Source: Rhabdophis nuchalis (taxonomy: Eukaryota > Chordata > Lepidosauria > Squamata > Natricidae). Taken from it: 64,000 nucleotides of DNA. Of this stretch, positions 8,930 through 62,785 are shown piece after piece; the stretch's first letter is position 1; each line of letters begins with the position of its first letter. The stretch spans positions 27,469,119 through 27,533,118 of the forward strand of contig CM077648.1 of the NCBI GenBank assembly GCA_039707465.1. Reading direction: 5' to 3'. Under the pieces are notes generated by a model. The model was not told the DNA's origin. It searched no databases and saw nothing but the letters and a program-made list of their open reading frames with translations. The position numbers were made by a program, and so were the translations under genes.

Positions 8930-9784
8930 TCATTTTTTAGATCTAAGTCTCTTGGCAATTGTGTCTTCTTGTTCTCCTCCCTGACCCCCAGTGGGCGTGG
9001 CCGTGGCCCCCTTCGCCCCTCCAGTTTCATCCCCCAGGATAGAGGAATATTTTTTAAGAAAGGCTTCCGCCTCAGCAACTGTTTTAATCCTTACTCTTCC
9101 TCCTTCCCAGAACACCAACATCCCTTCTGGCATCACCCACTTGAACCAAATCCCCTGGTTAAACAATTTTGTAGATAAGAAGGAATATTTCCTCCTCACC
9201 TCTCTAATCTTTTTCGGGATCTGCTTCAAGATGGTGACTTCCTTTTGCTGGTACGTTAACGGACCCTCTCTCTGTGCCCTCAATATTCCCTCCCTGGTAG
9301 ACCTTCTAACAAATTTAATATGTATCTCTCTGGGTAATTCATTTATCCTGGCATATGCTGAATTTATTCTATAAGCCAGGTCAATGTCCCCCCTGATCTC
9401 CTCCTTAGGTTTATGTAAGTAATCTGCTAAAATTGTGCTCATAAGATCAGGAAGGCATTCACCAGGTTCTTCCAAAATGTTCTGAAATCTTAAAAAATAT
9501 GACATCCTTTCAAAATCCATCCTAGACATATGACCAGTTAAATCTCCAATTTCAGTATTAACATTTTTAAGTTCTCCCTTTGCCCCAGCCAGCCCCACTT
9601 CCAACTCTTCAGTCTTCTGTGTATTCTACATCAATTTCTTCTGTGTCTCCAAAAGCTCCAATTTAGAACTGCAGTGGTCCTTTCTAAGCTCTTTAATTTC
9701 CAGTACCAAAGAGTGTAACACTTCCTCCATAGCTGTCATCCTTGCTTCAATGCCTAGTTGTTCTGGTTGCTTTTTAGAAGCCAT
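8930..9784 (-). pseudogene. L1 ORF1p-like RNA-binding protein, one internal stop
   Basis: From the ATG at 9784 the frame would be 284 codons, but codon 53 (9626-9628) is TAG. The remaining 224-codon open stretch runs from about 9604 to 8930. Residues 1-80 are polar and heptad-like (LVLEIKELRK, LELLETQKK), consistent with the ORF1p coiled coil. The middle has the RRM-type pattern ending in IHIKFVRRSTREGIL, and the C-terminal domain contains YSFLSTKLFNQGIWFKW and GRVRIKTVAEAEAFLKKY. In L1 this protein trimerises and coats element RNA. The tail is rich in Gly, Thr and Glu and ends with basic residues. Without the stop it would be near the usual L1 ORF1p length. I infer recent loss of function from the single nonsense change. 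Confidence 0.75.
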
Positions 9785-11337: not shown

Positions 11338-11401
11338 AAACTCAAAGTTAATCATGCACTATTTAAAATTCAAAAAATCTCCAATCTGAAACGAATTAGT
11401 C

Positions 11402-12103
11402 TTGTCTTGCAGCAACCTATGTCATATAAATGTTCTACATTTAGGCAAGAAAAACAAAATGCACAGGTACAGTATAGGTGGTACCTTGCTCAATAGTAGC
11501 AACTGTGAGAGGGATCTTGGAATCCTAGTGGACAACCATTTAAATATGAGCCAGCAGTGTGCAGCAGCTGCCAAAAAAGCCAACACAGTTCTAGGCTGCA
11601 TAAACAGAGGGATAGAATCTAGATCACGTGAAGTGTTAATGCCACTGTATAGTGCCTTGGTAAGGCCACACTTGGAATACTGCATACAATTTTGGTCGCC
11701 ACGATGTAGAAAAGACGTGGAGACTCTGGAAAGAGTGCAGAGAAGAGCAACCAAGATGATTAGGGAACTGGAGACTAAAACATATGAAGAACGGTTGCAG
11801 GAGCTGGGTATGTCTAGTTTGATGAAGAGAAGGACCAGGGGAGACATGATAGCAGTGTTGCGATATCTCAGAAGGTGCCACAAAGAAGAGGGAGTCAAAC
11901 TATTCTCCAAGGCACCTGGGGGCAGGACAAGAAGCAATGGGTGGAAACTAATCAAGGAGAGAAGCAACTTAGAACTAAGGAGACATTTCCTGACAGTTAG
12001 AACAATTAACCTCTGGAACAGCTTGCCTCCAGAAGTTGTGAATGCCCCAACCCTGGAAGTCTTTAAAAAGATTTTAGATAGCCATTTGTCTGAAATGGTA
12101 TAA
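11402..12103 (+). pseudogene. CR1 ORF2 C-terminal fragment
   Basis: An open 233-codon frame containing [81 protein letters not shown] and LWNSLPPEVVNAPTLEVFKK. This is the conserved region downstream of the reverse transcriptase palm in CR1 LINEs. The endonuclease and the YADD-containing palm are missing, so the fragment cannot be active. The first few codons precede the recognisable CR1 similarity and are probably flanking sequence read in frame. Confidence 0.85.
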
Positions 12104-15340: not shown

Positions 15341-15673
15341 CTATTTATGTTGGTTAATTGTGCATTTTAAAAAAACACTTTACCTTAAACTAATATTACG
15401 GCTATAGCTTAATAACCTTAAAAAGTTTTACTCCCATATATACTCACAGATATAGCCCTGGAGAATCTTTTAAAAGAAAAAAAAATACTACTTAAACTTT
15501 CTGCAGTAAGACTTAGCGTTGTAAAAACATCCATCTGTAAGTGTGTATGTTTCTCTGTGTGTAATATATACCTTGGATAATTGTCCACTTTTTGCAGTAT
15601 ATGGGAGTCTCTTTAACCAACATTCAATATTATAAATTACTGTTCCACATTATCTTTTTTTTATTATTGTTCT

Positions 15674-15901: not shown

Positions 15902-16510
15902 GTTTTGGGGTTTTGCCCAGAAAGTAAATTATTGGTTTATTGATGGTAGGACATAATATTTTCCTCTTCAGAACTAAAAGTGTAATAAAGACCTCTGCAA
16001 AAGGGTAGAACAATCATTCCAGGACTGGTTGATTACTGTGGGATAATTTCCTTTGGAGGTTCATCACTACTCTTATGTTGTTATTGTTCCTTTCCCAAAT
16101 TGAAAAAAAAAAAGTGCTTTTATCCATTTTGGCAATTAGGCTTCAGAATATTGCTGCCCATATTTTAGAAGTGCAAGTTATATTTTATAAGTGCGATTAT
16201 AAACACTAAAAATAAAATATGGTTATTCATATTCCAAGATTTAATGAAAATTTTCCTTATTAAGAAGGCTTTATAGCTAATAATTTCTTTATTTTTCCTT
16301 CTGATTCTGTAACTTGATTAAAATGCCATTTAATGGCAGTCTTATTTGATTTAGTCACAAAAATTTGCTACTCATTTGTTGTGCTGATATTCCACCATAA
16401 AATTAATCTCAGTTTATGTTTTTTTTAACCAGTTAAGCATTACCTTTTTATCCTAGTTTTTTAAAAAATAAAATAAATGAGGCACTGTTAGTAGAACAGC
16501 CCAAATACTA
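15902..16510. other. AT-rich DNA, nothing recognised
   Basis: No gene or named repeat could be supported. Confidence 0.5.
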
Positions 16511-17155
16511 AAGTCTGTCTGTGGTCTTCCGGGTGCGCTTCAAGGTGTTAATTACCATCTACCAGCCGCGCGAGCAATTATGGGAACCACTAGGTTTGCC
16601 CATGTAACACCGCTCTTGCGCGAGCTGCACTGGCTGCCTGTCGTCTTCCGGGTGCGCTTCAAGGTGTTGGTTATCATCTTTAAAGCGCTCCATGGCTCGG
16701 GACCTAGCTACCTGCGGGATCGGATACTGCCTCACACATCCTCACGGCCGATTCGCTCCCACAGAGAGGGACTTCTCCGGGTGCCGTCCACTAGACTTTG
16801 TCAGCGGGCGACGCCCAGGGGAAGGGCTCTCTCTGTGGCGGGCCCGGCCCTCTGGAACGACCTTCCCCCCGATATTAGAACGACCACGGACCTCCGCTCC
16901 TTCCGCCTGAAATTAAAGACACATCTTTTCCGCCTGGCCGGCCTAGGGTAGTCTCTCTCTCTATGGGTTTTTTAATTGTTTATGTATATTGTGGGGATTT
17001 TTAGTTAATGGGATTTTAGCACAGGAGTTTGTTTAATCTGTTTTAAATTGTATGTATTTTTGTATATTTATGGTTTTTATTCTCCCTGTGCACCGCCCCG
17101 AGTCCCTGTGGGGAGAGGGAGCGGTTAATAAATTCAGCTTTATTATTTATTATTA
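16511..17155 (+). mobile_element. L2-like LINE, 5'-truncated and 5'-rearranged
   Basis: Contains the last 124 codons of an L2-like ORF2, a 3' UTR with the ctgtgcaccgccccgagtc terminus, and a (TTA)n tail. Positions 16518-16560 duplicate the internal segment 16637-16679 (tcttccgggtgcgcttcaag), 119 bp upstream. The 5' end therefore carries a copied internal piece, typical of template switching at the end of target-primed reverse transcription. Confidence 0.8.
16580..16951 (+). pseudogene. L2-like ORF2 C-terminal fragment
   Basis: An open frame with LLRELHWLPVVFRVRFKVL, IFKALHGSGPSYL, IRSHREGLLRVP and ALWNDLPPDI, ending KLKTHLFRLAGLG. This is the conserved C-terminal tail of L2-like LINE reverse transcriptases. 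Endonuclease and palm motifs are absent. It remains open, suggesting moderate age. Confidence 0.8.
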
Positions 17156-22155: not shown

Positions 22156-22327
22156 GTAAGGATTCTGTCACTTCTTTTTATTTGGTCATATGCAAATTAT
22201 TTCTCCCCAACACAAAAGAGAGCAGAAGGCACACATGGAATTCCTAAGGGTGTGTGTGTGTTTGTATGTGCGCACACACACACACACACACACATATATT
22301 TACGTTTGTGCTGATAAATAAATAAAC

Positions 22328-22388
22328 AAGGGAGACTAGTATAGATCTATTTCAAGCTATTTAGCTCTCATCAGCTAGCCATACCCTT
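22328..22388 (-). ncRNA. Hammerhead ribozyme motif (type I), copy A
   Basis: Minus-strand order: outer stem I AAGGG, inner GGCTAG, core CTGATGA, stem II GAGCT with loop AAAT and AGCTT, core GAAA, stem III TAG/CTA with a 2-nt loop, cleavage triplet ATA, then CTAG and CCCTT closing stem I. All conserved core bases are present. Cleavage is predicted between 22340 and 22339 on the minus strand. The stem III helix is very short, as in newt satellite and retrozyme hammerheads that act as dimers. Confidence 0.8.
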
Positions 22389-22524
22389 ACTGGGATTTGA
22401 ACCGGGGCTGTATTACATGTTAGGCAGATGTTTTAGCCACTAAGCCACCAGGTTCTCCTCCTGATCACGTGTGACACAAGTATATACTTATTCCCCTGGC
22501 TCAGTGATCAGGAGGAGAACCTGG

Positions 22525-22579
22525 TGGCTTAGTGGCTAAAACATCTGCCTAACATGTAATATAGCCCTGGTTCAAATCC
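22525..22579 (+). promoter_or_regulatory. Pol III A and B boxes of tRNA-like head
   Basis: TGGCTTAGTGG at 22525-22535 fits the A box, and GGTTCAAATCC at 22569-22579 fits the B box. The start-to-start spacing of 44 bp is usual for tRNA-derived promoters. It lies directly upstream of hammerhead copy B. Confidence 0.7.
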
Positions 22580-22584
22580 CAATA

Positions 22585-22644
22585 AAGGTACAACTAGCTG
22601 ATGAGAGCTAAATAGCTTGAAATAGATCTATACTAGTCTCCCTT
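22585..22644 (+). ncRNA. Hammerhead ribozyme motif, copy B
   Basis: Core CTGATGA and GAAA, stem II GAGCT/AGCTT, stem III TAG/CTA and the ATA cleavage triplet are all intact. The outer part of stem I is weaker than in copy A (acaaCTAG instead of tggCTAG). Cleavage is predicted between 22632 and 22633. Confidence 0.78.
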
Positions 22645-22799
22645 GTTTATTTATTTATCAGCACAAATGGAAACACAAATGGAAACAAAAGGCAATGAAA
22701 CAAATAGCTTTCTGCCTGCATGGCCTCTTGTGATGAGCTGAAAGACAGAAAAGGAAAGCAGCTTGCTTCCTCCCTTAATTGGGTCTTACCAGGGTGTTG

Positions 22800-22800
<1 letters not shown>

Positions 22801-22838
<38 letters not shown>
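22801..22838 (+). repeat. (CA)n microsatellite
   Basis: A pure CA dinucleotide tract at the end of the tRNA-like/hammerhead repeat copy. Similar tracts end other copies of the family. Confidence 0.95.
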
Positions 22839-25082: not shown

Positions 25083-25400
25083 AGTTTTTATGAACTGATC
25101 AATAAATAAATCAGAGAGACTAGTATAGATCTATTTCGAGATTTTTAGCTCTCATCAGCTAGCCATACCATTACTGGGATTCGAACCAGGGCTGTATTGC
25201 ATATCAGGCAAGAGCCTTTAGCCATTCAGACAAGCCAGACTCTCCCATTGCATCAGCTGAGACAGGAGGATTAGTATCTATAATTGTTCCACAACACCCT
25301 GTTAGGGCCCCAATTACTGTTTCCTTTTCTGCCTTTCGGCTCATCACCAGAGACCATCTAGACAGAAAGCCATGAATTCCGTTGTGTGATTTTTTTTTTT
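25083..25400 (-). repeat. tRNA-like/hammerhead repeat, minus copy
   Basis: Minus-strand order: the gacagaaaaggaaacagt module, a tRNA-like head with B box GGTTCGAATCC (25177-25187), a hammerhead, then the tgatttatttattgatcag tail ending at a TG tract (25052-25082). The module lacks a few bases relative to other copies. Together with 25408-25540 it forms a partial foldback. Confidence 0.75.
25113..25170 (-). ncRNA. Hammerhead ribozyme motif, copy C
   Basis: Core CTGATGA and CGAAA are present, the latter the canonical form with a G-C closing pair in stem II. Stem II is GAGCT/ATCTC with one internal mismatch. Stem III and the ATA triplet are intact, and the outer stem I is weaker. Relative to copies A and B, the closing pair changes from G-U to G-C, which preserves pairing. 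Confidence 0.7.
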
Positions 25401-25407
25401 TATATGT

Positions 25408-25552
25408 GTGTTACGTTTTTGAGCTGATCAATAAATCCCAGTAAGGGTATGGCTAGCTGATGAGAGCTAAAAAGCTCAAAATAGATCTATCCTAGTCCCC
25501 CTGACTTATTTACTGATCAGCTCAAAAACGTAACATACACACACACACACAT
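25408..25552 (+). repeat. tRNA-like/hammerhead repeat, plus partial copy
   Basis: Begins with an inverted piece of the tail (gttacgtttttgagctgatc), then cccagtaagggtatgg, the hammerhead, then the forward tail gatcagctcaaaaacgtaac and a CA tract. The tail pieces on the two sides are reverse complements, so this part can fold back on itself. Confidence 0.75.
25442..25505 (+). ncRNA. Hammerhead-like motif, copy D, core mutated
   Basis: CTGATGA, a perfect 5-bp stem II (GAGCT/AGCTC) and stem III are present, but the conserved GAAA is AAAA (G12 to A). That change is expected to abolish cleavage. The cleavage triplet here is ATC, also permitted by the NUH rule. Confidence 0.65.
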
Positions 25553-27438: not shown

Positions 27439-28512
27439 TTAGGCTAGGCCGGCTTGATGGAAAAGGTATGTCTTTAAACATTGGCGGAAGAGGCGGAGGT
27501 CGGTGATGGTGCGTAATTCAGAGGGTAGGTCGTTCCAAAGGGCAGGGCCCACCACAGAGAAGGCTCTTCCCCTGGGTGTCGCCAGTCGGCATTGTCCGGC
27601 CGACGGCACCCTGAGAAGGCCCTCTCTGTGGGAGCGTATCGGTCTAAGGGATGTATGGGGCAGGAGACTGTCTCGCATATAACTAGGCCCCGAGCCATGG
27701 AGCGCTTTAAAGATGGTCGTCAGAACCTTGAAGCGCACCCGAAAGGCCACAGGAAGCCAATGCAGCTCGCGCAGGATCGGTATTATATGGGAGCATCTGG
27801 CGGCTCCCGTAATTACCCACGCGGCTGCGTTTTGGACTAGCTGTAGCTTTCGAGTGCACCTCAAGGGAAGCCCCATGTAGAGAGCATTACAGTAGTCGAG
27901 ACGGGACGTCACGAGAGCTTGAGTGACTGTGCGAAGGGCAGCCCGGTCCAGTAAGGGGCGCAATTGGCGCATCAGGCATACCTGATGAAACGCCCCCTTG
28001 GCCACGGCCGCCACATGGTCCTCCAATGACAGCCGGGAATCCAGGAGGACACCCAAATTGCGCGCCCTCTCCACGGGGGCCAGTGTTTCGCCCCCAATGG
28101 CCAGAGTTGGAGTAATCTGGCTGAACCGGGGTGCCGGAAACCACAGCCACTCAGTCTTGGCAGGGTTGAGCTTGAGTTTGTTGCCACCCATCCAGATCCG
28201 TACGGCCTCCAAACACCGGGACAGCACTTCGGCAGCATCGTTGGGGTGGTCTGGGGTGGATATGTACAGCTGAGTGTCGTCAGCGTACAGATGGTACTCC
28301 ACCCCAAAACCACGGATGATCTCACCCAGCGGCTTCATATATGTGTTAAACAGGAGGGGCGAGAGGACCGACCCCTGAGGAACCCCACATAAGAGGGGTC
28401 TCGAGGTCGACCTCTGCCCTCCCGTCAACACATATTGCGACTGACCAGAGAGGTAGGACGAGAACCACCGCAAAACGGTGCCTCCCAGCCCCAACACCCC
28501 CAGTCGGTGCAA
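27439..28512 (-). pseudogene. L2-like reverse transcriptase, C-terminal two thirds
   Basis: A 357-codon open frame. Residues 44-52 are VPQGSVLSP (RT motif B region), 76-79 YADD (motif C catalytic pair), 111-121 NKLKLNPAKTE, 153-158 LGVLLD and 250-255 LHWLPV; the C-terminal LWNDLP and LKTYLFHQAGLA complete the L2-type tail. It begins just after the motif A position (HRLGVLGLGG), because the preceding part is in another frame. The encoded enzyme would lack the motif A aspartate. Confidence 0.88.
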
Positions 28513-29300
28513 TAGGATACCATGGCCGAGAGGTCTAATAGGACTAGGATAGAGGAATAACCTCTATCCCGCGCCCTCCAGAGATCATCAACCAACGCGA
28601 CCAATGCCATCTCGGTGCTGTGACCGGGTCGGAAGCCGGACTGGCGCGGGTCTAGATAATCAACTTCCTCCAGGTATCGTGGAAACTGTTGGGCTACCAC
28701 ACTCTCAACAACCTTCACCAAAAAGTGAAGGTTGGAGACCGGACGATAGTTCTCCAACAAAGCTGGGTCCAGGGACGGCTTCTTGAGGAGGGGCCTCACT
28801 ACCGCCTCTTTCAAGACGGCAGGTAAGGACCCCTCACTCAAAGATGCATTGACAATGCCCTGGAGCCAGCCTCGGGTCGTCTCCCAGGATGCCAGTACAA
28901 GCCAGGAGGGACACGGGTCCAATAAACATGTGGTCGCCCTAAGTTTCCTTGACAGCCTGTCCATATCCTCGGTGGTAACAAAGTCAAACTCCTCCCAAGA
29001 TGGAACCTCAAGACTAGTCTCGGACAGTCCCACAGGACCACTGTCGATGGGGGGTAGCTCATTCCGAATCCGAGTGATTTTTTCCTGCAGATAAATCCCA
29101 AATTCCTCTGCTCCCCCTTGTAGAGGGGCTTCCCGTGGCCTCTGGTGAAGGAGGGAGCGGGTCATCCCAAACAGGGCGGCAGGGCGGTTATCTGCGGATG
29201 CAATTAGGGTGGCACAATACTCACGTTTGGCCACCCTTATCATCACTAAGTAAGCCCTAATATGGGTTCTCACTAGTGTTCGGAGTGAGAGGATCTCCAT
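28425..29300 (-). pseudogene. L2-like reverse transcriptase, N-terminal part
   Basis: A frame with LPAVLKEAVVRPLLKKP, ENYRPVSNLHFLVKVVE, RQSGFRPGHSTEMALV and ILVLLDLSA, i.e. the fingers and the approach to motif A. Directly after LDLSA the expected AFDT-type residues are missing. The sequence jumps to what would be HGILLHRL in another frame, so roughly 17-20 bases, including the catalytic Asp codon, are deleted at about 28524-28526. The remaining 30 or so codons are out of frame. Confidence 0.85.
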
Positions 29301-29995
29301 CTGCTCTCTAGGCGTCTCTTGTGGCGCTTCATCTCCCGAAGCTCCTCAGTAAACCAGGGAGCCTGGGTGGTTCGTCGCCGCAAGGGTGCGACTCGGTCCA
29401 AGGCCCCCGTGGCCACACTTAACCATGCGGCCACTAGGTCCTCAGTCGAGTCGCGAGGCAGGGTCACAGGAATTGGCCCAAGCTCCTTCTGGAACCTTTC
29501 CGGGTCCATTAAAAGCCTGGGGCGGAACCATATAGGAGTATCCGGTTCCGCCTCCCCGTGGTGAGGTGAAGCGATTGGAAAGTCCAGCTGGAGGAGAGCG
29601 TGATCTGTCCATAACAAGGTAGTGATGACTAAAACCCCTATTCCCAGATCACAGCTCCACAAAGATCAGATCCAGCATGTTTCCCCCCTCGTGAGTAGGG
29701 CCTAAAACTACCTGGGTCAGGTCCATGGCCGTCATGGAGGCCATGAACTCCCGAGCTACTCCAGAGGCTTCGCCCGCCGACGGCAAGTTAAAGTCCCCCA
29801 TGACTACTAGTCTGGGGTCTCAACTGCCGCCTCGGCTATCACCTCTAGGAGCTCGGGCAGGGCTGTTGTTGCATAGCGAGGAGCCAGGTATACAACTAAC
29901 ACGCCCAACTGCCTCCCTAGGCCCCATCTCACGCAGTGAGATTCACACCCGGTTGTCTGAGGGACTGTGGTCTTCTTCGGCTCAACATTTGGCAT
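29273..29995 (-). pseudogene. L2-like endonuclease remnant and linker
   Basis: Two frames remain: 29807-29995 (GRQLGVLVVYLAPRYATT, LPELLEVIAEAAVETP) and 29273-29662 (TDHALLQLDFPIA, APWFTEELREMKRHKRRLE). A GDFN motif (endonuclease) is encoded between them near 29785 in a shifted frame, next to tandem stops. The 5' end lies inside the endonuclease domain, so the copy was 5'-truncated at insertion. Confidence 0.75.
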
Positions 29996-30289
29996 TTTTA
30001 TCTACCTATTGAGTGCTTCCCCAGCAGTCATCTGAGATAGACAGATATTATTATTTCATGGTGTATAAATATCACAGCAGCATGTAAGCTGTTCAAGAAA
30101 TTATGACTGTATCAAGCATATGAGAAGTGGCTAATTGTATTATATTGAGAAATAGAAAAAGTGATATTGTTCCAGATGTTAAAGAATTGCCTTTTGGAAA
30201 TGTGTGACTGATTTGTTTTAGAAAAAGCAATATTTTGTATTAATTAAAGATTAATACATATATATTATATGTACTATATAATTGTTTTC
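29996..30289. other. AT-rich DNA
   Basis: No feature recognised. Confidence 0.5.
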
Positions 30290-30484
30290 ACAACTTCCTG
30301 TTAGGGCCCCATTAAGGGAGGAGACATACTGTTTCCCTCTTTGCCTTTCGGCTCATCACCAGAGACCATCTAGACAGAGAACCATGAAATAACGTTGTGT
30401 AATATATTTTTTTAGATATGTGTGTTAGTTTTATGAGCTGATCAATGGATCAATAGATCGAAATAGATCTATCTTGGTCTCTCA
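30290..30484. repeat. tRNA-like/hammerhead repeat, rearranged copy
   Basis: The minus-strand module (aattaagggaggag... reversed, tttcggctcatcaccagag) is followed by an inverted tail (tgtgttagttttatgagctg) and then a plus-strand half hammerhead at about 30457-30484: cgaaatagatctatc, then ttggtctctc. CTGATGA and stem II are absent. The order minus-module, inverted tail, plus-hammerhead matches the 25240-25505 copy, implying a shared rearranged ancestor or the same foldback mechanism. Confidence 0.65.
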
Positions 30485-37074: not shown

Positions 37075-37081
37075 TATATAT

Positions 37082-37262
37082 AATTGTTCCAGAACACCCT
37101 GCTAGGGCCCCAATTAAGGGAGGACTGTTTCCTTTTCTGCCTTTCGGCTCATCACCAGAGACCATCTAGACAGAAAGCCATGAGTTCCATTGTGTAATTT
37201 TTTTATATGTGTGTTACGTTTTTGACCTGACTTATTTATTGATCAGCTCAAAAACGTAACAT
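37082..37262 (-). repeat. tRNA-like/hammerhead family repeat, no ribozyme
   Basis: Carries the minus-strand module (ccccaattaagggagg, tttcggctcatcaccagag, atctagacagaaagcc), then the tail in inverted form: gttacgtttttga and tcaaaaacgtaac form a small hairpin around acttatttattgatc. The tRNA-like head and hammerhead are absent. Flanked by TG and AT-rich tracts as in other copies. Confidence 0.7.
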
Positions 37263-40516: not shown

Positions 40517-41637
40517 TTTTTAAATAGTTTTTATTGAAACATTTTTACCATTAAAAACAAAGGAAAACACAACAAAAAACAAAAAGCAAAACATACATAA
40601 CAATATAGAATAATTGCACAGCTTTCTGTATAGGCATTCATGTTTAGCCTTTATAATTCTTCATTCTCCATTGCCTTCCTATTGATTTTACCTTCTCTAA
40701 TAATATAGCAACAGTAGTACTAACACTTGTAATAATCATATCACCATTACAGTATAGACAATTTACAGTATATCACCATTTACAGTATAGACAATTCTTT
40801 GATAGTGATTAGTAACTTTGGTTAATTTTAATTCAATACTGGTTTAGAAAAAAACCCACAAAGACTTCCATTTCCTGTTTTGGCTTCTGTTTTCTAGCCA
40901 CTTATAAATTCTATTCCATATTTTATAGAAATCCGATTCTTCTCTTTCTTTTAGTTCCATGATCAATTTGTCCATCTCTGCACATTCAAGTACTTTTCTA
41001 ATTACTGTTTCGTCTGCGGGTGTATTGATTTGTTTCCAGTTATGTGCGAAAGCAATCCTAGCTGCAATGAGTATGTATAGTATTATGTACTGAAATTGTT
41101 TGTCCACTTTCGGGTCTATTATTCCTAATAAGAACACTTCTGGTTTCAATTCTATTTTTTGCTCCGTAATTTCTTCCAACCATTTCTGAATTTTTCACCA
41201 GTATTTCCTTGTGATGGGGCACGTCCACTACATATAGTAGAATGTTCCAGACTTGTGGCCACATATACAACATTTGGAGGATAAATTTAGATACATTTTG
41301 GCCAGTGTCGCTGGGGGCAAATGCCATCTATAAAACATTTTATAGAGGTTTTCTTTGTAGGCTACTGCCGGCATAAATTTATAATTTCTTTCCCATAGTT
41401 TATCCCATTTTTCTAACTCTATATTACGGCCAAAGTTTCTTTCCCAGCTAATCATTGTCTCCTTTACTGTCTCTTCCTCCATTTTATATCTTAAAAGAAA
41501 ATTATATAGTTTGGTAATCATTTTTCCTCCCATTCCTAATAATATTTTATCTAATTCCATTTGTTTCTCGTGTATTCCATATTGTTCCCGATCTCCTTTA
41601 AATCTTGTTTTAATTTGTAGATAAGGCCATCATTCCA
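40517..41637 (-). mobile_element. L1-like LINE, 5'-truncated
   Basis: A minus-strand insertion with a perfect 18-bp target duplication (agtttcttatatattctt) at 40499-40516 and 41638-41655. It holds the C-terminal part of ORF2 (to about 40844), then a 3' UTR of about 330 bp ending with caataaaaac and an A run. A small tandem duplication of cagtatagacaatt lies at 40750-40797 in the 3' UTR. Confidence 0.85.
40844..41560 (-). pseudogene. L1 ORF2 C-terminal fragment, two internal stops
   Basis: Reads SWERNFGRNIELEKWDKLW, MFYRWHLPPATLAKMYLNLS, KCCICGHKSGTFYYM, stop, then (after a second stop) ITEQKIELKPEVFLLGI and FQYIILYILIAARIAFAHNW. This is the L1 ORF2 region holding the C-terminal cysteine motif and the helical LxxARxxxAxxWK-like segment. 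Both stops (near 41227 and 41185) are in frame and there is no frameshift, so only point changes have broken it. The endonuclease and RT are absent through 5' truncation. Confidence 0.8.
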
Positions 41638-47220: not shown

Positions 47221-47307
47221 TCTCTATATATTTCATATATATGTATATGTTTATGTTCTATCCTGATCAGCTGAGACAGGGGAATAAGTATATGCTTGTG
47301 TCACAAC

Positions 47308-47497
47308 ACCCTGTTAAGGCCCCAATTAAGGGAGGAAGCATAAGGCTTTCCTTTTCTGTCTTTCGGCTCATCACCAGAGACTATCCAGACAGAAAGCTAT
47401 TAGTTTGGATGGTCTCTGGTAATGACCCGAAAGACAGAAAAGGAATGCAGTATGCTTCCTCCCTTAATTGGGGCTTACCAGGATGTTGTGACACAAG
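47308..47497. repeat. Foldback of hammerhead-family module
   Basis: The module without tRNA head or hammerhead occurs twice in opposite orientation. cttgtgtcacaacaccctgt at the left pairs with aggatgttgtgacacaag at the right, through aattaagggagga/tcctcccttaatt and ctttcggctcat. Arms are about 90 bp around agaaagctattagtttgg. A TG tract follows at 47498-47521. Confidence 0.8.
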
Positions 47498-47521
47498 TGT
47501 GTGTGTGTGTGTGTGTGTGTA

Positions 47522-58516: not shown

Positions 58517-60660
58517 GATTAGTAATTATTTTTGTTTCCCAAATGCTGCAGTGTTACACATAAAGAAATATTGGTAACTGTACCTTCATAATATGCTGTT
58601 TTCATAACACCTCTAAATAACTACGCCTCTGTCTTCTGATTCGGGGGAGGGGGGATGCCTCTTTGTTTTTGGCATCTTACACTAAGAAATAATGTGATCA
58701 GAAAATACTTCATGTATGGAAAAGTAAACAAAGACCAAGTTGTGACTTTAAATTGGACATTAAACTAATCCAGGTCTATACCTTAATAAAGGCTAGAGCT
58801 GGGAATTCTTATGGATTTTCTAGCTCATTGCTGAGATGACAAAGAAATGCAATAAATGTTCTATTACTTACACAAGCTGTTAGTTTTCAGAAAATTAGTC
58901 ACCAATAACCTTTTACCCTCTATACTGCTCTCTTCCACAGTAAAAGGACCTGACCTGAATCAAATGCAACCCGTGGTTTATTTGATTGCTTTCCCCCCGT
59001 CCGTCCCGTCCCCCGCCCCCCCCGATTTATGCTGTTAAATTATGATGCTATTAGATGTTTTAGCCCAAACGCTGCATTTTTTTGGAGCTTTTTGCAGATA
59101 AACATTGAAGTTTTTGATCTTCACTAAAGCCACAATAAATCAAAATATTCCATTATAAGAAATAAACTGCCGTAAGTGTAGATATAAATTTTTGCTACAT
59201 GCTGGGGTTTCAGTCTATTGTATTTAACAAATGTGGGATACGTGTGTGAATGTATATGTGAACTTTAACATTTATATTCAGTTGAATGAAACGACACCAA
59301 CAGGGATGGAGATGGGGAGCATTTACATTATGTAGCCCACCCCAACTCCATGGTGGAATTATATTGATTAGTTTTCCAGTTAGCATGTAGACCTCCTTCT
59401 GACCCTATTTTCAGGGTCACTAGATCATAATGTGATAGTACTGAGAGACTGATGTCCCTCCCATATTGGTTTCTGAGAAAAGTATGGAAGTGGACAGAAG
59501 AAATCATGCTCTCGTTTATATATTTATTTCAATATTTGGAAGATATAAATGCATACATAAATTGCATGTGGAATGTAATATCAGGGGGCAAGCGAACAGT
59601 CTCTGGCTCAACCCAGAGAGACCTTTAAAAATTAAATTGTGGACATAACACACATCGTCAGATCCAACAGTATTTGAGCAAATCTTTCCCCAGGTGGTAA
59701 TATTTTAAGTGCAGGATGTTTCTTGAACTACTGTTATATACCATCAAATAATAAATCAGATTAAAACTACTTCATTTGTATGGTGATAGAAATGCTTTCT
59801 GCTGAACTGAAAAATAAAATTGTAACTGGGTCCTGACAATTTGGAGGCCTTTGGGAGAAGACCTTTATTAAGCAAAAGGGGGAAAAGGAGGGTGGAAATC
59901 CCATGTAACAAGCAAATTCTAGCTTTAAATAATAACCTGACCTGTCTTTTAGTATCATAGAATATGCACTATATACTATGTAAAATTTAATTTGTTAAAG
60001 TTACATGGAAACCTCATAACTAATATTTTCCATGGCAGGGGTGCAACACTGCAGAAAAGACCAAGAGTAAGAAAATAAAGCACTTAAAGAATGCTTTCAA
60101 TACTATTTTTAATTGTTATTTGAAGCTTACTGTTGACCTGAGTTTTGTAAAGCCATGAAGTCTGGACACAAGGACTCAAATATCCTCCTCCTAATGTTGG
60201 ACTTTTCAGTATGCCTTTGAACTCAGTCTTCTCTGAAAGTGTTGTAACTGTAGGAGAGCACATGGAGGGTTGGTAGGAGTGGATTTTTTTTTAAAAAAAT
60301 GAAAAGGGCTTAGTTTCCAGCAGTTGCAGCAGCTGTTACATCTGTCCCTGGGCTGAAATACAAGTAGGAAGAGAACAATGTTTTAGTACATGCTACTAGT
60401 ACAATTAATAGTGTGTGTGTGTGCAAAGAGCTCACCTTCGCTCAACTGCAGCATGAACTAATCCATTTCTGAAAAGTAGCAAAAGGAAAATGTTAGGTGG
60501 AAGATATATACTTTGCCTAAGGTGACCATCACACTCTGCTATTAAGGAGACTTCAAAAATCATCATCATCAAATGAACATACACAAAAATTAACAGTGGA
60601 AAAAATGTTAGCATAATAATTTTGTTTCTTTTTTTCTTGTCATATGCATTTCCCTGAGAA
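58517..60660. other. AT-rich unique-looking DNA
   Basis: No gene or repeat recognised, apart from a C-rich run (cccccgtccgtcccgtcccc) at about 58993-59025 and a G-rich run near 58645. Confidence 0.45.
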
Positions 60661-60839
<179 letters not shown>

Positions 60840-60909
60840 TTTACTGGGATTCGAACCGGGGAAATATTGCATGTGAGGCAGTTGTAATTGCCACCAGACC
60901 TTCCTAGTC

Positions 60910-60968
60910 AGGGTATGGCTAGCTGATGAGAGCTAAATAGCTTGAAATAGATCTATACTAGTCTCCCT
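60910..60968 (+). ncRNA. Hammerhead ribozyme motif, copy E
   Basis: Stem I AGGG...GGCTAG with CTAGTC...CCCT, core CTGATGA, stem II GAGCT/AGCTT with loop AAAT, GAAA, stem III TAG/CTA, and cleavage triplet ATA at 60955-60957. All core positions are intact. Cleavage is predicted after 60957. The TAGATCTA stem III stretch is self-complementary, so two RNA copies could pair into a more stable double hammerhead. Confidence 0.82.
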
Positions 60969-61220
60969 TGTTTATTTATTTATCAGCATAAGCGTAAGAC
61001 AAATGTAAACAAAGGCAATGAAACAAATAGCTTTCTGTCTGCATGGTCTCTTGTGATGAGCCAAAAAGACAGAAAAGGAAAGCAGCTTGCTTCCTCCCTT
61101 AATTGTGGCTTACTAGGGTGTTGTGACACAAGTATATACTTATTCCCCTGGCTCAGCTGATCAGGAGGAGAACCAGTGGTCTGGTGGCACTTACAACTGC
61201 CTCACATGTAATACTTCCCT

Positions 61221-61230
61221 GGTTCGAATC
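61221..61230 (+). promoter_or_regulatory. Pol III B box of the tRNA-like head
   Basis: GGTTCGAATC fits the B box. The corresponding A box (tggtctggtgg, about 61178-61188) is degenerate compared with TGGCTTAGTGG in the 22525 copy. Confidence 0.6.
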
Positions 61231-61235
61231 TCAGT

Positions 61236-61295
61236 AAGGGTATGGCTAGCTGATGAGAGCTAAATAGCTTGAAATAGATCTATACTAGTCTCCTT
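61236..61295 (+). ncRNA. Hammerhead ribozyme motif, copy F
   Basis: Same structure as copy E with outer stem I AAGGG/TCCTT. Core CTGATGA and GAAA, stem II GAGCT/AGCTT, stem III TAG/CTA and the ATA triplet (61282-61284) are all intact. Cleavage is predicted after 61284. Confidence 0.83.
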
Positions 61296-61339
61296 TGTTC
61301 ATTTATTTATCAGCATAAATGTAACATGTATATGTATAT

Positions 61340-61447: not shown

Positions 61448-61712
61448 ATGTTTTAGTAGATTTTCACAGGTGTAGGTATGCTGGTCTTGTTGTATTCAGG
61501 TCTTTTCCCATGTAAGATTGAGATTGTCTTTGCAACATTTCGGCGAGGTCTCATTCGCCATCTTCAGGCTGGTGTCGGTGGCTTCGCAGCTGCCGTCTTT
61601 CTATAAATCTTGGGGGAGGGAGGGGTGGAGTGCTGGCTTTGTTGCTGTGAATGTGTTGATTGGCTGTGTAGTTGTATCATGATTGGTAGATTGGTGCTGA
61701 TTTGTGCTATCT
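61448..61712 (-). mobile_element. Penelope-like fragment, right of the array
   Basis: Contains attttcacaggtgtagg, tatgctggtcttgttg, cccatgtaagattgagattg, tttcggcgaggtctcattcg and tcttgggggagggaggg. This is a recurrent squamate repeat that I associate with Penelope-like elements. No reverse transcriptase or GIY-YIG coding sequence is present. Confidence 0.4.
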
Positions 61713-62785
61713 CTATATGTATTACTGCATACAGAAGCACACACACACACACACATGTTGAGATTTTTGTGTAATTTTTGGGGATATGAGATGCAAATGT
61801 ATAGCAATATATGAGCCAAATACAGCTCTAGTACTGCTAAATTCAGTACTAGTGACTACAATGATCCAATTTATAACATTGTTTCTGATATATTGAGTGT
61901 ATTTTGAGTACAGGAAGATAAATTTGCTTCTAGTATTCTGCTCCAACAAGTAAAATCTCTATCATTTTTCTATCTTTCTCCTTATTAAACTAGTTTTGAA
62001 ATTTCACACAGAAGCTGCTTTTCCCCAATTCCTACAATGTTATATGAGTATCTAAACTGGTAAGATACATCTGGCAAAATAATATACTGTACATGCCTGG
62101 TGAAGTTTAAAATAAAATATACGAAAATTAATAATTCAGCCCTCCACTGAAGCACAGCTAACCTTATTTTTTAACTTAATATCCCCCATGGCTTCCCTGT
62201 GTGCTTTTTATGCAGTAAATAATGTCCTCACTCCCCTCCTCTTCTAATACACTCCACTTCTAATACAATCTTTCCTTTTCTACTTAAGAAAGATGTATTA
62301 GGTTTATTAGCATTAGTATAGCTGTCAGCTTTGCACTCTGCATATTATTAACAAGACCAAATTAATTTTGATGAAAAGCCAAATGTGTTACCATGTTAAC
62401 AATGCCCAAATTTATTCAGTCTGTAGGCAAACAGCTGGTCCTTCTCCAAACTTTACACAATACAGGTATCACCAAGCAAGCTGTCATTACACCCAGCATG
62501 TGTGCCTTCAGTGATGAAAGCAGAGATCCAGCTGTTCAATAGCTATAGTATATATAATATATTCCAAATACAGAACCACACACTGGACACTGGAATATAC
62601 AAGGAGTGTTGTATACATTAATTATTGTTAGCCTAGATTACCCATCAATCCATCTCATCGTGACTAGCAAAAGAAACTTACAATTTGGTAGGTAACTATA
62701 GAACAGGTTAGTTTGAGTTAGCCCAATTTACTGTGTAGTTAAATTCCTAAGCACGCTACCTAATCCGAAAGAATAATTATTTAGA
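61713..62785. other. AT-rich DNA
   Basis: A (CA) tract lies at 61738-61756. Nothing else recognised. Confidence 0.5.

Follow-up and report, generated by a model that had tools for sequence, protein, structure and literature searches.

The locus examined here raises the question of what kind of mobile element carries two hammerhead ribozymes 327 nt apart in a snake genome, and of how such an element is copied. The locus lies within a 64,000-nucleotide stretch of the Rhabdophis nuchalis genome (the whole of this stretch is called the window below), and an earlier note, made from the letters alone, had read it as a retrozyme-like dimer of two head-to-tail hammerheads with intact cores and, with reference to metazoan retrozymes, whose dimeric RNA is cut and circularised, had proposed a squamate retrozyme family. 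The physical part of that description is borne out: the coordinates are correct; each copy contains, on inspection, CTGATGA, a 5-bp stem II, GAAA, a 3-bp stem III, an ATA triplet and a stem I with an internal loop; the cut sites placed after 60957 and 61284 agree with our predicted cuts; and the pol III B box said to lie inside the 327-nt monomer is present (table 1).

Positions 60906–60997 and 61233–61324 are direct copies (87 of 92 nt identical, offset 327 nt). Each hammerhead is laid out as stem I (4 bp, an internal loop and an outer helix), CUGAUGA, a 5-bp stem II with loop AAAU, GAA, and a 3-bp stem III (ATAGATCTAT in both copies) closed by the palindrome GAUC, with cleavage after AUA. 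In the window copies, stem II is closed on the core side by a G.U wobble. The Rfam covariance model that the earlier note had named as a check gave a divided answer: both window hammerheads fall under the RF00163 gathering cut-off of 34 bits (table 1), and a family copy elsewhere in the genome (L103) exceeds it at 35.1 bits, the sole passing hammerhead in the 20 loci scanned. A covariance model built from 38 genome copies, none of them from the window, recognises each hammerhead of the dimer with an E-value of 8.3e-19 and the six good window copies at 72.5 to 78.7 bits (E <= 4e-17), a seventh, decayed copy at 30436–30482 (+) reaching 29.6 bits (E 1.4e-5; E-values from the covariance-model tool are rough throughout). 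The hammerhead core is intact in five of the six good copies. Single-strand folding of either window copy was no better than that of shuffled sequences (z −0.63 and −0.76).

The truncation of unit 1 falls immediately 5' of its hammerhead, which leaves the sense-strand head between the two hammerheads, with the B box 3' of hammerhead 1. Hence the sense-strand promoter of the locus itself would yield only hammerhead-2 RNA and would be unable to make a dimer transcript, which could come from copies whose truncation lies further upstream.

Table 1. Copies of the hammerhead element and its neighbours in the window, with positions counted from the first letter of the window.
Feature	Position	Strand	Remarks
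Head-to-head pair of family copies	22300..22806		hammerheads 22331-22380 (-) and 22592-22641 (+)
Inverted pair of family copies	25088..25533		hammerheads 25115-25164 (-) and 25451-25500 (+; G12 changed to A)
Decayed family copy	30275..30482		body fragment 30275-30378 (-), hammerhead remnant 30436-30482 (+)
Family body fragment	37077..37224	-	
Inverted pair of body fragments	47261..47498		without hammerhead; one side enters TG repeat
Penelope-like 3'-end piece	60776..60842	-	91% to 61473-61539; abuts inverted tRNA head
Inverted tRNA-like head piece	60841..60900	-	head-to-head with unit 1; 92% to 61178-61237 inverted; exact B box 60847-60857, minus strand
Unit 1, 5'-truncated	60906..60957	+	upstream part of hammerhead 1 to predicted cut
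Hammerhead ribozyme 1	60917..60966	+	window-free model 78.7 bits; RF00163 22.3 bits
327-nt monomer between predicted cuts	60958..61284	+	41.6% GC; TTTT absent; ATG frames of at most 34 aa
Tail region, unit positions 1-40	60958..60997	+	AC-rich stretch; most sampled copies end nearby
Body	60998..61160	+	hairpin-forming (fold z -2.14 for 60958-61107); second 3'-end class near unit position 170
A-box-like site of tRNA head	61177..61188	+	two mismatches to consensus used; looser A-box matches numerous
B box	61221..61231	+	one mismatch; 64 nt before cut, like most sampled copies
Hammerhead ribozyme 2	61244..61293	+	predicted cut after 61284; window-free model 78.7 bits; RF00163 22.3 bits
3' tail	61285..61324	+	element ends in GTAA, then TATG-type repeats
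Penelope-like element 3' end	61456..61730	-	tail-to-tail with dimer over simple repeats, ~130 bp off

The window's own genome (1.92 Gb) contains 1,976 occurrences of the exact 35-nt core and 0 of the reversed pattern, and a looser hammerhead pattern (free loop II, free positions 11.1 and 12) matches at 15,506 places, again with 0 for its reverse; with position 12 free, part of these 15,506 matches are not intact. Cores are intact in 194 of the 231 sampled hits, and in 40 of 53 in what we call the positional sample, which comprises the 20 loci listed first, all in the initial 12 Mb of a single contig. Across subfamilies the stems vary in a compensating manner, stem I reading CTAG/CTAG, CCAG/CTGG or CCAA/TTGG, stem II GAGCT/AGCTC, GGGCT/AGCCC, AGGCT/AGCCT or GGACT/AGTCC, and stem III TAGATCTA or TGGATCCA; the one subfamily that has five differences came to light in a search permitting any five. 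Among 38 distinct sequences (hand-chosen among 102 distinct core-intact ones, with at most 11 per subfamily pattern), 97.1% of cells are paired, as against 20 to 38% in slid controls; 44 cells are changed on both sides, as against 13.6 in shuffled data (a count reached by 0 of 500 shuffles); covariation scores 0.319, as against 0.178 after shuffling; and compensatory changes affect six pairs, shared among the three helices as 2, 3 and 1. The count of pairs changed on both sides (6 vs 4.3 shuffled, 22 of 500 as high) and that of further pair types (11 vs 13.2 shuffled) are not outstanding in these 38 sequences. When 140 distinct sequences were considered, broken cores included, 47 cells had changed on both sides, where 1,000 shuffles averaged 7.2 and reached at most 15. 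Because related sequences share changes, these figures reflect only a handful of events, yet the events fall in each of the three helices. A chance motif is ruled out by the forward and reversed counts together with the compensatory changes; the family is real, abundant and structurally conserved, and it is retrozyme-like and SINE-like together.

Unrestrained co-folding of two copies produces a double hammerhead with a shared 10-bp stem III (−40.0 kcal/mol, vs 2 × −15.8 kcal/mol for the singles), and for a single copy the hammerhead fold lies well off the optimum (−2.5 when only the three core helices are counted). This modelling suggests that the hammerhead could act as a dimer through the shared stem III, a mode reported for axolotl retrozymes in the sections of PMC7229834 consulted here.

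Numbered from the cut, the unit consists of a tail (1–40), a body (41 to ~206), a tRNA-like head (~207–290) and the hammerhead. A match to RF00005 in L103 scores 29.0 bits (equal to its cut-off) and ends 1 nt upstream of the RF00163 match, the two being the only matches when both models were run over the 20 loci; ARAGORN called no tRNA gene in the window or in 25 loci. In a survey of 124 distinct copies with at least 120 nt upstream, a B box is present in 119, always 63–67 nt before the cut (shuffled rate 0.2%), and an A-box-like site is likewise present in 119, lying 107–109 nt before the cut in 92 of them; its shuffled rate is 30%, and the A box is weak evidence save for its fixed place. The 5' ends of copies are widely spread, with an excess at ~104–121 nt upstream of the cut that is too mild to claim a pol III start from it. 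Of 153 copies, 3 have a TTTT run between the head and position 40, and the 327-nt unit has none, so transcripts would be expected to run through tandem units. Judged by these features, the element would be a SINE of tRNA origin that carries a type I hammerhead 3' of its tRNA head, its transcription being predicted.

The positions at which copies end bear on what was copied. In the positional sample (51 hammerheads), 3' ends lie 21–62 nt past the cut in 32 cases, 155–223 nt past it in 12 and at least 388 nt past it in 5 (dimers), and 2 lie within 3 nt of the cut, one of these being followed by masked letters; in an exact-core sample (62 hammerheads from 30 loci, some overlapping), the corresponding ranges are 18–54 nt (41), 138–208 nt (13) and 342–390 nt (6), with 2 ends before 18 nt. 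Copies of the first 3'-end class typically terminate in an AACACA-type sequence, and those of the second in a GTTGTGACACAA- or GTTGTGGAACAATTA-type sequence. Simple repeats are present within 50 nt around or after the 3' end in 55 of 78 distinct cases of the first class and 11 of 22 of the second, and in 21 of 115 stretches of 40 nt before the 5' end, a control that is imperfect in being shorter and in that many 5' flanks are another copy. Since most 3' flanks consist of simple repeats, any target site duplications would be hidden. Since the 3' ends lie past the cut, the insertion templates spanned it, and a cleaved linear monomer is unlikely to be the usual template. Such use of cut-spanning templates resembles the behaviour of the Penelope-like enzyme of Anolis, which cuts and extends both target strands, starts inside its own RNA at an AC-rich stem-loop with two adjacent sites, and mainly uses unprocessed RNA in vitro (PMC11167929).

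Copies of the element are also arranged in a characteristic way relative to one another. Adjacencies of less than 100 bp between elements (118, a number that includes overlapping and duplicate loci) are head-to-head in 73 cases, tail-to-tail in 32 and in the same direction in 13, the head-to-head gaps being centred on zero; a head-to-head pair is present in 11 of the 17 positional-sample loci that are left when near-duplicates are removed. The 3' ends of the neighbouring, Penelope-like repeat adjoin one another head-to-head 10 times, tail-to-tail once and never in the same direction. Such a 3' end is present in 14 of 80 non-duplicate loci that were chosen independently of that repeat, and in those 14 loci it meets the element tail-to-tail within 100 bp in 8 contacts, where 1.6 are expected (0 of 5,000 random placements gave as many); head-to-head (2, 0.8 expected) and same-direction (4, 2.4 expected) contacts make up the others.

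The neighbouring repeat is labelled through a related copy (L079), which contains a 105-aa frame of GIY-YIG type with two protein matches from the lizard Phrynocephalus (64 and 76% identity); Pfam GIY-YIG scores 22.1 and 21.9 bits on these two proteins, just under its cut-off of 22.6, and neither Pfam on the 65- and 105-aa neighbour pieces nor PDB on the 105-aa piece returned a match. From this short frame, and from the general make-up of such elements, we take the neighbour to be probably Penelope-like. The frame belongs to the neighbour; the element itself is non-coding and, lacking an ORF with reverse transcriptase and GIY-YIG, is not itself a Penelope-like element. The Penelope-like 3' end has no sequence match with the element, so that the link to the enzyme rests on insertion architecture and proximity, a pattern that might equally arise from nested insertion or from a preference of both elements for targets in AT/CA repeats. 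In the window, the Penelope-like piece runs directly into the inverted tRNA-like head (table 1). Of 2,486 candidate places for this junction, 40 were scored; among their 49 matches the window's own is the only one to span the 130-bp join, so that by its look this is a one-off chimera, such as template switching or nested insertion would give; a recurrent SINE with a Penelope-like tail is rejected on the same count.

We consider it quite probable, as the best explanation of these observations, that the element is a non-autonomous hybrid of SINE and retrozyme that is moved by Penelope-like enzymes from cut-spanning RNA. Pol III would start at the tRNA head, and its transcripts would run through tandem units. 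Two hammerheads on one transcript would then pair through the palindromic AUAGAUCUAU into the predicted double hammerhead and cut, releasing a 327-nt RNA for which circularisation is possible. A putative Penelope-like GIY-YIG/reverse-transcriptase enzyme would take cut-spanning RNA, either an uncut multimer or a circle, and start inside it at the AC-rich sites ~40 or ~170 nt past the cut, where copies are observed to end. Priming by both target strands would leave two 5'-truncated cDNAs head-to-head, with their tails outward in AT/CA repeats, and switching by the enzyme between element RNAs and its own RNA would produce the chimeras and heterodimers whose junctions are observed. More tentatively, and as a possibility that falls somewhat short of being probable, we suggest that Penelope-like enzymes start at the two internal AC-rich sites on cut-spanning RNA and prime both strands at once, and that the hammerhead works only as a dimer and would sort multimeric transcripts rather than make the template.

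A classical retrozyme cycle, in which released monomers are circularised by a host ligase and rolling reverse transcription of one circle gives head-to-tail dimers, is in our judgement unlikely. Dimers of full 327-nt units are indeed common (756 direct-order pairs of stem III strands lie 312–342 nt apart in the genome, counted at this spacing), metazoan retrozymes are reported as circles in the consulted sections of PMC7229834, a 3' end past the cut also fits a circle, and the units of two loci (L027 and L011) have rare variants in common by eye. An origin from a single circle would make twin units. Same-locus units are slightly more alike than others, but the excess is small: for 38 dimers, 1,150 of 20,000 permutations did as well (850 when two duplicate loci are dropped), and for the 15 long dimers the likeness is 0.908 vs 0.905 (2,679 of 20,000 as good). 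A star-like family would also give such an excess; it would blur the likeness test and leave the heterodimers standing. Units with different tRNA head types are joined in 4 of the 15 long dimers (L022, L025, L035 and L042, by eye), and in one dimer (L045) units of two subfamilies, A-type and B-type, are coupled. These heterodimers speak against rolling-circle copying for their loci and are explained by transcripts of mixed tandem loci or by jumps from RNA to RNA. The weak likeness excess and the heterodimers together rule out a one-circle origin of every dimer, a circle origin being possible for other dimers, and the relative from Anolis works on unprocessed RNA in vitro (PMC11167929). The cut-and-circularise cycle that the earlier note cites for metazoan retrozymes is to this extent not upheld here, heterodimers and 3' ends past the cut being unlike the copying of one cleaved monomer.

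Were the element an ordinary tRNA-SINE moved by a LINE, which we regard as improbable, the hammerhead would be a passenger, the head-to-head pairs would be a product of twin priming and the simple repeats would be the SINE's tail. The tRNA head, pol III boxes, 5' truncation and simple-repeat tail are all SINE-like, and the window does contain pieces at 27442–29345 (−) that we read as LINE-type reverse transcriptase (Pfam RVT_1 68.9 bits on 27442–28563 and 25.9 bits, below the cut-off, on 28428–29345). However, a passenger hammerhead is at odds with the maintenance of three helices by compensatory changes across diverged subfamilies, head-to-head is the commonest adjacency, and the tail-to-tail contacts with Penelope-like ends exceed chance. 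Hammerhead satellite DNA that is dispersed through recombination, the arrangement originally reported for newt repeats, is very improbable, since, for all the similarity of the ~330-nt head-to-tail units with a tiny stem III, the 40 best places are spread over 13 contigs, the sampled loci contain single, paired or few units, and among the matches listed for the 312–342-nt pairs two pairs overlap as trimers and no run is longer, leaving no long tandem array in the sampled loci or among the listed pairs. The squamate retrozyme family proposed in the earlier note survives in part: type I hammerheads, a minimal stem III and ~330-nt dimer units are retrozyme-like, whereas the sampled loci present a dispersed, mostly 5'-truncated, tRNA-headed element, often head-to-head, and not a satellite.

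Returning to the hybrid element moved by Penelope-like enzymes, its parts have precedents in several known systems. It possesses the features by which metazoan non-LTR retrozymes are delimited (a unit of ~170–400 nt, a hammerhead, no ORF and less than 50% GC, with tandem copies). In the sections consulted, axolotl Rtz331/353 (PMC7229834) are described with a type I hammerhead, minimal stem III, palindromic tetraloop, ~330-nt non-coding unit of less than 50% GC, coexisting Penelope-like elements and an expected dimeric ribozyme, all as in the snake; they form tandem arrays, whereas the snake element has a tRNA-type head with A and B boxes, dispersed 5'-truncated head-to-head copies, and heterodimers. 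The nearest precedent found for a hammerhead combined with pol III boxes is schistosome Sm-alpha, a SINE-like element of ~335 bp with boxes A and B and a type I hammerhead; it belongs to another phylum, and the parts of its descriptions used for this comparison (PMC2576457, PMC8490949) mention neither a palindromic 10-nt stem III strand nor two 3'-end classes. Poseidon PAc of Anolis, a Penelope-like element (PMC11167929), likewise has a hammerhead upstream of an internal AC-rich start, two start sites, extension of both strands and AT-rich targets; unlike it, the snake element has no ORF, its 3'-end classes are ~130 nt apart rather than 30–40, and in place of the minimal PLE form its hammerhead shows a complete loop on stem II and a bulge in stem I. 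Squamate tRNA SINEs are dispersed and non-coding as well, and the portions of their descriptions used here (PMC7983390, PMC10702118) do not contain the term "hammerhead ribozyme". The intronic hammerheads of amniotes, reptiles included, are also type I but are single conserved motifs and not mobile, according to the consulted part of PMC6155905. Hammerheads in reptiles are thus already known, both in these introns (PMC6155905, same part) and in Anolis Penelope-like elements (PMC11167929); in the literature searched, which left most subscription journals outside its scope, we found no squamate retrozyme or hammerhead SINE, and an earlier description is possible.

With this family, reptiles gain a hammerhead retroelement of pol III type and, in its subfamilies, a natural series in which hammerhead structure is maintained through compensatory change. 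The mover of animal retrozymes is an open question for which PMC7229834 names Penelope-like elements as no more than a strong candidate. Here the insertion scars suggest Penelope-type copying, which, if true, would answer who moves such elements. The family offers thousands of such scars, of which the sampled ones provide a common architecture, tail-to-tail neighbours and one chimeric junction, and because a related enzyme has already been purified (Anolis PAc, PMC11167929), the question of mobilisation is open to a test at the bench.

Several further observations concern the window and the sampled loci. CA, TA, TATG or TATC repeats often begin exactly at copy ends (L048–L107); either new microsatellites may be seeded by the element, or slippage may occur as the enzyme copies the AC-rich start site. 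In the window, a long GATA tetranucleotide array (60660–60780) starts at the outer end of the chimera's Penelope-like piece. Four long frames (8933–9625 (−), 11390–12100 (+), 41231–41629 (−) and 16481–16948 (+)) gave no Pfam match and by eye resemble retroelement coding fragments. A second CTGATGA-like stretch (GTGATGA GCC GAAA GGC A GAAA, by eye) occurs in the element body at 25300–25373 (−) and its equivalents; with G at position 3 it is probably not a ribozyme, being perhaps the remnant of a decayed hammerhead or a hairpin that binds protein. Lastly, positions 22299–22673 are 90% self-complementary and form a near-palindromic inverted pair of the family, and in another locus (L089) inverted copies alternate with CA repeats between them; transcripts of such near-palindromic pairs (that of 22300–22806 and those of L089) would fold into long hairpins and might in this way supply double-stranded RNA.
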